Below, piece by piece: positions 52,259-52,891 of a DNA stretch of 64,000 nt. Origin of the DNA: Cryomorphaceae bacterium 1068 (lineage in GTDB: Bacteria > Bacteroidota > Bacteroidia > Flavobacteriales_D > Cryomorphaceae); NCBI GenBank assembly GCA_027214385.1, contig JAPVXR010000015.1, positions 7,501 to 71,500 of the forward strand, read 5' to 3'. The notes under the pieces were generated by a model. The model did not search any database. It saw only the letters and a program-made list of their open reading frames with translations, and was not told the DNA's origin. Every line of letters begins with the position of its first letter. Position 1 is the first letter of the stretch. The translations under genes and the position numbers were made by a program.

Positions 52259-52291
52259 AAAAAAAACAGAGCTCGAAATGAACTCTGTTTT
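52259..52291 (-). terminator. Terminator of tRNA-Leu
   Basis: On the minus strand AAAACAGAG and CTCTGTTTT form a stem directly after the CCA end of the tRNA, followed by a T-run to 52259. The 3'-most base of the encoded CCA is the first base of the stem. Confidence 0.75.
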
Positions 52292-52378
52292 GGTACCCGG
52301 AGCGGGACTTGAACCCGCACGGCCGCAAGGGCCACAGGATTTTAAGTCCGGCGTGTCTACCAATTCCACCATCCGGGC
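52291..52378 (-). tRNA. tRNA-Leu (anticodon TAA)
   Basis: An 88-nt type II tRNA with a long variable arm, an encoded CCA (52291-52293), T-loop GGTTCAAGTCC and D-loop AATTGGTAGACA. The anticodon loop CTTAAAA gives TAA (52342-52344). The acceptor stem GCCCGGA/TCCGGGT closes with a terminal G-U. The anticodon stem has one apparent C-T mismatch (CCGGA against TCCTG). It has its own promoter and terminator. Confidence 0.95.
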
Positions 52379-52390
52379 GAATTGGGACGG

Positions 52391-52419
52391 CAAAGTTAAA
52401 ATTTTTGGTGGCTTGGCAA
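52391..52419 (-). promoter_or_regulatory. Promoter (-33/-7) of tRNA-Leu
   Basis: On the minus strand TTG (52417-52419), 18 nt, then TAACTTTG (52391-52398), a full consensus promoter. It ends 12 nt before the first tRNA base at 52378. Confidence 0.75.
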
Positions 52420-52448
52420 GTGGATTGGAAAAAAGATTAAATGTGATT

Positions 52449-52487
52449 CATTTGTAGCGTCAAGGCATGCCTTGAAGCGTACAAATG
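52449..52487. repeat. 39-bp near-palindrome with CAAGGCATGCCTTG core
   Basis: Arm 52449-52467 and arm 52468-52487 are inverted copies, with outer blocks CATTTGTA/TACAAATG and inner block CAAGGCA/TGCCTTG. The middle differs by one base and a small shift. No gene overlaps it. Confidence 0.7.
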
Positions 52488-52500
52488 AAAGTCATTTTTA

Positions 52501-52611
52501 AGGGGATTGGCCTTCGCTGCGGTGATCCCAAGGGGTGGGACTTTCAACCAAAGCTAATCCGACTTCGTCAGATTCATGCTTTTTTCATTTTCTGAAGCCT
52601 GTGAGCGAGCT
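52501..52611. repeat. Intergenic repeat element, copy 1 (about 111 bp)
   Basis: Imperfect direct repeat of 52648-52763. Shared blocks include GGGATTGGCC, ATCCCAA, CTTTCAAC, a hairpin AATCYGAC-N3-GTCAGATT (here 52556-52574), and an identical 32-nt end (52580-52611 and 52732-52763) beginning with six T. It lies between tRNA-Leu and tRNA-Gly. Confidence 0.75.
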
Positions 52612-52647
52612 TTAGCAGCGATTGACTGCTCAGGTCAGTACTATTAA

Positions 52648-52763
52648 AAGGGATTGGCCTGCGCTTTGCTACGGCCATCCCAAAGGGGGAGGCTTTCAAC
52701 AAAAGCCAATCTGACTGAGTCAGATTTAGCCTTTTTTCATTTTCTGAAGCCTGTGAGCGAGCT
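52648..52763. repeat. Intergenic repeat element, copy 2 (about 116 bp)
   Basis: Second imperfect copy of the element at 52501-52611. Its hairpin AATCTGAC-TGA-GTCAGATT (52709-52727) is perfect, and it contains a second small hairpin GGCTTT...AAAGCC at 52691-52707. Its last 32 nt form the left half of the long palindrome described next. Confidence 0.75.
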
Positions 52764-52785
52764 CACGCTTCAGAAAATGAAAAAA
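52732..52785. repeat. 54-bp near-perfect palindrome ending copy 2
   Basis: A perfect 19-bp inverted repeat (52732-52750 and 52767-52785; T6 at one end, A6 at the other) encloses GTGAGC-GA-GCTCAC with a 2-nt bulge. It could act as a bidirectional terminator or a folded element. It directly abuts the tRNA-Gly terminator, whose U-tract is the A-run at 52780-52785. Confidence 0.85.
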
Positions 52786-52811
52786 GCCATCACAACTTCG
52801 TCGTGATGGCT
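52780..52811 (-). terminator. Terminator of tRNA-Gly
   Basis: On the minus strand GCCATCACGAC, a GAA loop and GTTGTGATGGC form an 11-bp stem (one G-T wobble), followed by six T. It sits 8 bp after the tRNA 3' end. Confidence 0.85.
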
Positions 52812-52818
52812 TTTGTTG

Positions 52819-52891
<73 letters not shown>

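Follow-up and report, generated by a model that had tools for sequence, protein, structure and literature searches.

Palindromic units behind tRNA genes of Flavobacteriales: conserved structure, locus-specific sequence and a probable target in the T-loop

The window analyzed here, a stretch of 64,000 nucleotides from Cryomorphaceae bacterium 1068, contains a tRNA-Leu gene (52291-52378, minus strand) and a tRNA-Gly gene, both located by ARAGORN, and the spacer between them bears a repeat, which raises the question of what kind of element lies next to these genes. A sequence-only reading had described tandem imperfect copies in the spacer, and this description holds: two direct copies (52512-52611 and 52664-52763), placed 152 bp apart, are 84% identical over 100 nt, and the 29 nt lying further upstream form a second family, with a match of 79%. 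The hairpin AATCYGAC-N3-GTCAGATT, reported as conserved, is indeed present in both copies (52556-52574 and 52708-52726), and the identical end that the copies were said to share is also real, its length being 33 nt (52579-52611 and 52731-52763) rather than 32. The near-perfect palindrome of the second copy was likewise recovered, with arms of 23 nt (52731-52753 and 52764-52786) which are 96% complementary and join the U-tract of the tRNA-Gly terminator.

What that reading missed is that the palindrome reaches tRNA-Gly itself, by way of 13 nt of perfect pairing between the arms designated a and a' (Table 1). The unit is thus anchored on the tRNA and inverted relative to it. Read on the tRNA strand, the element is a compound palindrome that starts within tRNA-Gly, and the repeat noted earlier is its outer half. 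The order of parts on this strand is the end of the T-stem, trailer arm a, the terminator hairpin hp1, arm b, a bulged tip, arm b', hairpin hp2, arm a' and finally GGGAT-hp3-AATCCC, such that hp1, the terminator hairpin of tRNA-Gly, faces hp2 across the palindrome. The outer copy has the second half as in the inner copy and lacks the first; of the two units in the window, only the inner is complete, the partial one being older. Beyond the outer unit, a further palindrome (52439-52497; arms of 18 nt, 83%) may represent the remains of an older unit. Elsewhere in the window, a direct repeat of 31 nt with 84% identity occurs at 975-1005 and 1284-1314.

Table 1. Parts of the complete (inner) and partial (outer) units behind tRNA-Gly, in window coordinates
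Feature	Position	Strand	Basis
tRNA-Gly(GCC), anchor	52818..52891	-	ARAGORN, Rfam RF00005
Putative insertion point, T-loop of tRNA-Gly, between TTCGA and ATCCC	52818..52891	-	displaced 3' ends at other loci
Trailer arm a, partner of a'	52807..52819	-	100% complementary to 52696-52708; closing stem of DNA fold
hp1, tRNA-Gly terminator hairpin	52786..52810	-	inverted-repeat search, DNA fold
Arm b, begins in U-tract	52767..52786	-	inverted-repeat search, foldback detection, DNA fold
Tip, with stem of 6 bp and loop of 2 nt (TC, tRNA strand)	52753..52766	-	hairpin analysis, DNA fold
2-nt bulge AG, 3' side only	52751..52752	-	hairpin analysis
Arm b', near-perfect complement of b	52731..52750	-	inverted-repeat search, foldback detection
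Second hairpin, hp2, lacking complementarity to hp1	52705..52731	-	DNA fold; seen in the sequence-only reading
Arm a', complement of tRNA trailer	52696..52708	-	inverted-repeat search
C-rich segment X' (AAGCCTCCCCCTTT, tRNA strand)	52682..52695	-	similar at tRNA-Gly loci of relatives, two families
hp3 and T-stem echoes, GGGAT (inverted) and AATCCC (direct)	52650..52681	-	echo test, DNA fold
Outer unit, left half missing	52503..52611	-	sequence comparison with inner copy
Outer unit: echo and hp3	52503..52529	-	
Outer unit: X'	52530..52543	-	
Outer unit: a'	52544..52555	-	
Outer unit: hp2	52556..52574	-	
Outer unit: b'	52579..52598	-	
Outer unit: tip half		-	

The suspicion that this spacer is not random is well founded. 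Folded as DNA, the tRNA strand of 52640-52842 reaches -57.4 kcal/mol against a mean of -24.1 for shuffled sequences (z -9.9), and none of 200 shuffles equals it; in the predicted fold the trailer stem closes a cross of three arms, behind which hp3 forms a separate hairpin. The opposite strand (-53.9, z -8.5) has a best fold that differs from the cross, and the far copy alone (52497-52630), folded as RNA on the plus strand, does no better than its shuffles (z 0.45). A search of the window with Rfam 15 returned only the two tRNAs at gathering score, and membership in an Rfam family was rejected for the unit; the sub-threshold matches in the window were to miRNA, leader and sRNA hairpins.

The expectation that many copies would be dispersed by sequence was not borne out, as a search of the genome itself (E < 0.01) gave nothing outside the window locus, and a sequence-dispersed repeat was rejected on this ground. 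Among seven other genomes of the family, five have a sequence match of 22-114 nt, each at a tRNA-Gly gene. A scan of 100 genomes for a 20-nt pattern produced 29 matches, seven of them at tRNA-Gly loci (genomes G000, which is the present one, G002, G006, G007 and G008); the other 22 all have three mismatches, the reversed control itself giving 12 matches, and 21 of these 22 lie in stretches without a tRNA, the last (L042) having a tRNA about 860 nt away. The same kind of scan over contigs detected four MAG contigs, assigned to G002, G005, G006 and G007. An assembly artefact was rejected, in that the window copy lies inside a contig of 105,910 bases and the G002 copies inside one of 1.1 Mb.

What recurs is the structure, and it does so behind many tRNA genes, in other families of the order as well. 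A strict detector of long, gap-free foldbacks, which scores G-T as a mismatch and is blind to units with indels in the arms, identified 26 of 205 tRNA 3' flanks, with the center of the foldback 51-66 nt after the tRNA, compared to 0 of 123 upstream (5') flanks and 0 of 4100 mononucleotide shuffles. The survey covered nine genomes and flanks of at least 120 nt, with a part of the tRNAs of G001 and G003-G007, and the strict set was limited to arms of at least 20 nt, whereby the 12-nt arms of G001 Ala and G004 Ala were excluded and 28 loci became 26. The host tRNAs are Gly, Arg, His, Val, Glu, Pro, Ser and Asp. Additional units were recognized by eye at Val, Pro-ggg, Glu and, in reduced form, Ser-gct of G000 and at Gly of G008, and tandem copies are present at some loci.

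A covariance model, R1, was built from the strict hairpins and run on 150 Flavobacteriales genomes. Its 56 rows merged to 43 places in 20 of the 150 genomes and in nine families (f1-f4 and f6-f10), a count to be read with the stricter filters that apply over more than 40 genomes, under which absence of a match is weak evidence; several of the relatives are also fragmented assemblies with contigs ending inside arrays. Of these places, 24 are new; the other 19 were part of the training set, so that their match is a given. According to the coordinates and ARAGORN, 40 of the 43 lie 24-43 nt behind a tRNA gene, and the other three, all of them new, are preceded by a displaced tRNA 3' end (G003 C39, G042 C18 and G096 C29); G096 C29 was judged by eye, the stretch examined containing no tRNA gene. 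A control of 158 segments (best scores 14 and 22) may still have contained tRNA loci and was set aside.

The arms of each unit are matched to one another and not to those of other loci. At positions 4-17 from the tip of the 26 strict loci, the 364 pairs comprise 351 Watson-Crick pairs, 3 G-T pairs and 10 mismatches; since the detector counts G-T as a mismatch, the scarcity of G-T and the Watson-Crick excess are partly selected, an effect which bears less on the contrast with swapped arms. In that contrast, own arms have 11.5 of 12 Watson-Crick pairs (lowest 9), swapped arms have a mean of 5.9 and a maximum of 11 (n=650, best of seven offsets), and swaps within the same isoacceptor have a mean of 6.2 (50 swaps). 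A covariation count on a mafft alignment gave two-sided change in 13 of 17 pairs, yet the arms align poorly, so that this count understates covariation and the swap test provides the main evidence. Both copies in relatives and covariation, whose joint absence had been named in advance as grounds for abandoning the idea, were found. The proposal of a mobile or amplified palindrome or of a structured RNA stands in outline and falls as to dispersed sequence copies.

The longest match between hp1 and the complement of hp2 averages 5.1 nt, against 4.4 in swaps, and the sole 12-nt match (G003 Arg-tct) falls within trailer sequence of the compared segment; hp1 and hp2 being non-complementary, the unit is not a simple inverted duplication. 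Pairing of the trailer (a with a') over at least 8 nt occurs in 17 of 26 loci, against 4.8% of swaps. The segment X' is similar among tRNA-Gly units of two families, in which the arms are dissimilar. The tip consists of an inner stem of 4-6 bp and a loop of 2-4 nt; its 3' side carries additional bases in 25 of 26 loci, the one exception being symmetric. Among 21 of the 24 new hairpins, the right-side excess is present in 17, three lack it and one is symmetric, with a poor outer stem in five of the fits; as the hairpins are related by descent, these counts are not independent trials. The echo of the T-stem (bases 59-63, inverted and direct) matches the unit's own tRNA in 16 of 26 loci or, when the inverted echo alone is considered, in 21 of 26; among 373 swaps in which the 5-mer differs, the corresponding counts are 2 and 51. 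For tRNA-Val, the T-stem differs between the two species of the genus (G000 and G001), and the echo differs accordingly.

At some loci the unit is followed, behind hp3, by a displaced tRNA 3' end. In a set of 42 loci, composed of the 26 strict loci and 16 of the 24 new R1 places, a displaced end of at least 9 nt occurs in 7, compared to 4 of 1598 swaps; the remaining 35 have less than 9 nt, and at least 7 nt is found in 19 of 42, compared to 9.6% of swaps. Examples are those of G010 Arg-acg (17 nt), G000 Pro (15), G132 Ser (12) and G006 Gly (11); in the window only AATCCC remains. G010 has two successive whole ends of 17 nt, identical to the 3' end of its own tRNA-Arg, and G042 has two which resemble tRNA-Arg 3' ends and differ from the resident tRNA in several bases, thus not being exact copies. 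These double ends are read as probable serial insertion, with the newest copy adjoining the tRNA. In a broader sample, exact copies of the own 3' end of at least 12 nt were found in 13 of 170 usable tRNA flanks and in 0 of 1954 swaps; 12 of the 13 lie outside the strict foldback set, which suggests that the T-loop is a general target for several kinds of insertion.

At Lys, Asn and Leu-cag of G008, at Met and Cys of G003, at Leu, Met, Arg-tcg and Cys of G002 and at Lys of G000, a short insertion separates an intact tRNA from a full copy of its 3' end. The strict foldback is absent next to the tRNA in these cases; at G002 Cys a weaker one is found at a greater distance.

Insertion of the units into the T-loop is strongly indicated, and the displaced 3' ends behind some of them would, as far as the sequences go, indicate that it was serial. 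In the sequences, a unit stands behind an intact tRNA 3' end and terminator and terminates with a short copy of the host's T-stem, which at some loci is succeeded by the displaced end. The mechanism proposed here would place the insertion point directly after TTCGA in the T-loop; the tRNA would remain functional, since the incoming unit would provide it with a fresh 3' end and terminator. The old 3' end would be pushed outward, and repeated insertion would generate tandem arrays. As for the enzyme, small GIY-YIG nucleases, which also target these T-loops, may be regarded as no more than candidates. Against the reading of T-loop insertion is the adaptation of the arms to each locus, unlike in ordinary transposons, and repeated template switching could also give inverted copies.

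The units resemble several known systems in part. Integrative elements of tRNA genes (ICEs and islands) generally carry an integrase; no integrase gene was found inside the window element, there being no ORF of at least 60 aa within 52394-52864. The cases treated in PMC9897764, of about 9-23 kb, are described there as leaving one complete and one partial copy of the tRNA after insertion. The repeat of the tRNA 3' end expected at the far side of such an element is clear at some unit loci, and in the window it is reduced to AATCCC. The units are about 150-180 nt long, lack an ORF and contain an inverted copy of the tRNA flank. The attC sites of integrons conserve structure without sequence, and their extrahelical bases direct the choice of strand (PMC2727003). 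The likeness lies in the conservation of shape rather than sequence and in the formation of arrays, yet attC belongs to gene cassettes and IntI, whereas the units are gene-free and located in tRNA T-loops. REP hairpins are characterized in PMC8266576 as imperfect, with a bulge that matters for recognition, and as folded single-stranded DNA substrates handled by Y1 transposases. The one-sided excess at the tip of the units resembles the conserved bulge of REP/BIME and TnpA-REP (RAYT) systems, but REPs keep a GTAG sequence motif and a Y1 transposase, whereas the units have locus-specific arms, and the Y1 (HUH) transposase PF01797 has no match in G000 or its congener G001, being present in all seven other genomes searched.

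The earlier suggestion of a REP-like or MITE-like element consequently finds little favor. A transposase-dispersed REP or MITE of the ordinary kind would explain a palindromic, non-coding and repeated unit, and is nevertheless highly improbable in view of the lack of both dispersed sequence copies in the genome itself and a Y1 match in G000 and G001, and of the structural model R1, which matches tRNA loci only. RAYT/REP membership was rejected on the first two grounds and on the dissimilarity of arms between loci, and a MITE on the locus-specific arms, together with the own-genome search, terminal inverted repeats common to many sites being absent.

Taken together, a family of non-coding units that enter the T-loops of tRNA genes and may be recognized as a folded strand is judged to have slightly better than even prospects of being the right explanation. 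Recognition as a folded single strand is suggested by analogy, from the locus-matched arms, the few G-T pairs, the one-sided bulge and the likeness to attC and REP hairpins. A bolder form of this idea considers the units as mobile DNA recognized by shape only, in which a cloverleaf-like, cross-shaped folded strand, whose arms copy the tRNA flank, homes into T-loops and rebuilds the tRNA each time, one structure-specific enzyme serving any tRNA gene whatever its sequence; it is tentative and, on the whole, doubtful. A by-product of replication is an unlikely alternative, according to which template switching at the tip and the T-arm produces direct-inverted-direct copies of the 3' end and quasi-palindrome correction maintains the arms, with nothing mobile involved. 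The direct-inverted-direct order, the almost purely Watson-Crick arms, the tandem copies and the presence or absence of units between sister species all agree with it, yet blind copying does not predict an hp2 that is not the reverse complement of hp1, an X' alike in the tRNA-Gly units of two families whose arms are not, or a tip and one-sided bulge that recur across the order. The units might instead serve the host as an RNA or DNA structure at tRNA 3' ends (a bidirectional terminator, a block to read-through or a control of processing) selected for pairing, for which the compensatory arms, the terminator position and a fold much more stable than that of shuffles would speak. This is less probable again, since the strict test finds the foldback in only 26 of the tRNA flanks surveyed, the scarcity of G-T pairs is unusual for an RNA stem and most of the unit lies beyond the terminator. 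Between the two species of the genus, moreover, orthologous loci have lost their unit or retain it in decayed form, as judged by eye: the His unit occurs in G001 only, and the Gly and Asp units of G000 are decayed in G001.

A more specific form of T-loop insertion, whose odds overlap with those of the favored explanation, is that the units are non-autonomous derivatives of GIY-YIG tRNA cassettes mobilized by these nucleases. Small GIY-YIG genes share the niche of the units, composed of a tRNA, a terminator, the ORF and then a tRNA copy with a loop filled by a palindrome or hairpin, and they share with the units both the T-loop target and the hairpin-interrupted tRNA copy. A tRNA gene is present in 20 of the 30 GIY-YIG loci fetched and absent from the stretch in the other 10. 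Both element types occur at tRNA-Pro, in either order: in G003 the GIY-YIG cassette lies between the tRNA and the palindromic unit, and in G000 the tRNA is followed first by two units and then by a truncated GIY-YIG ORF. The GIY-YIG query matched 16 of 20 R1-positive genomes and 49 of 130 others, a co-occurrence that takes the two samples of 150 genomes as identical (their handles agree) and is confounded by descent. The units differ in having no ORF, and they occur in two near-complete genomes, G015 (100% complete) and G102 (99%), where no small GIY-YIG match was found, matches being confined to frames of 446-738 aa; G035 (71% complete) has units and no GIY-YIG match. In G000 the query matches only the truncated ORF, of 52 aa; another GIY-YIG ORF, of 125 aa, is distant from tRNA genes. 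No shared sequence was demonstrated between the two element types. Such derivatives are about as unlikely as the replication by-product. The query also has misses, as G010 escaped it and has a GIY-YIG ORF of 107 aa.

Inspection of individual GIY-YIG loci revealed small ORFs behind tRNAs, with a partial tRNA copy before or after, at L083, L087, L064, L065, L073, L077 and L079, some of the GIY-YIG ORFs being in tandem. A GC palindrome, of which CCGCCGCGGCGG and CCTGCCGGCAGG are examples, takes the place of the T-, D- or anticodon loop in these partial copies. At L059 (G000:C3:103271), in a stretch that contains no tRNA, a GIY-YIG gene has repeated TTCGGCTCCGCTCA palindromes on both sides.

Searches of an open-access library gave no description of such units, and as their shape is conserved and their sequence is not, sequence-based repeat finders miss them. 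Insertion units that conserve shape rather than sequence in at least nine families of one order would form a class and, if the explanation is true, one whose members co-vary with the tRNA gene that hosts them and substitute its 3' end. The units thereby offer testable material for the questions of how tRNA genes acquire new 3' ends and terminators, how palindromes remain perfect under sequence drift, and what role the tRNA-linked GIY-YIG genes play in Flavobacteriales.
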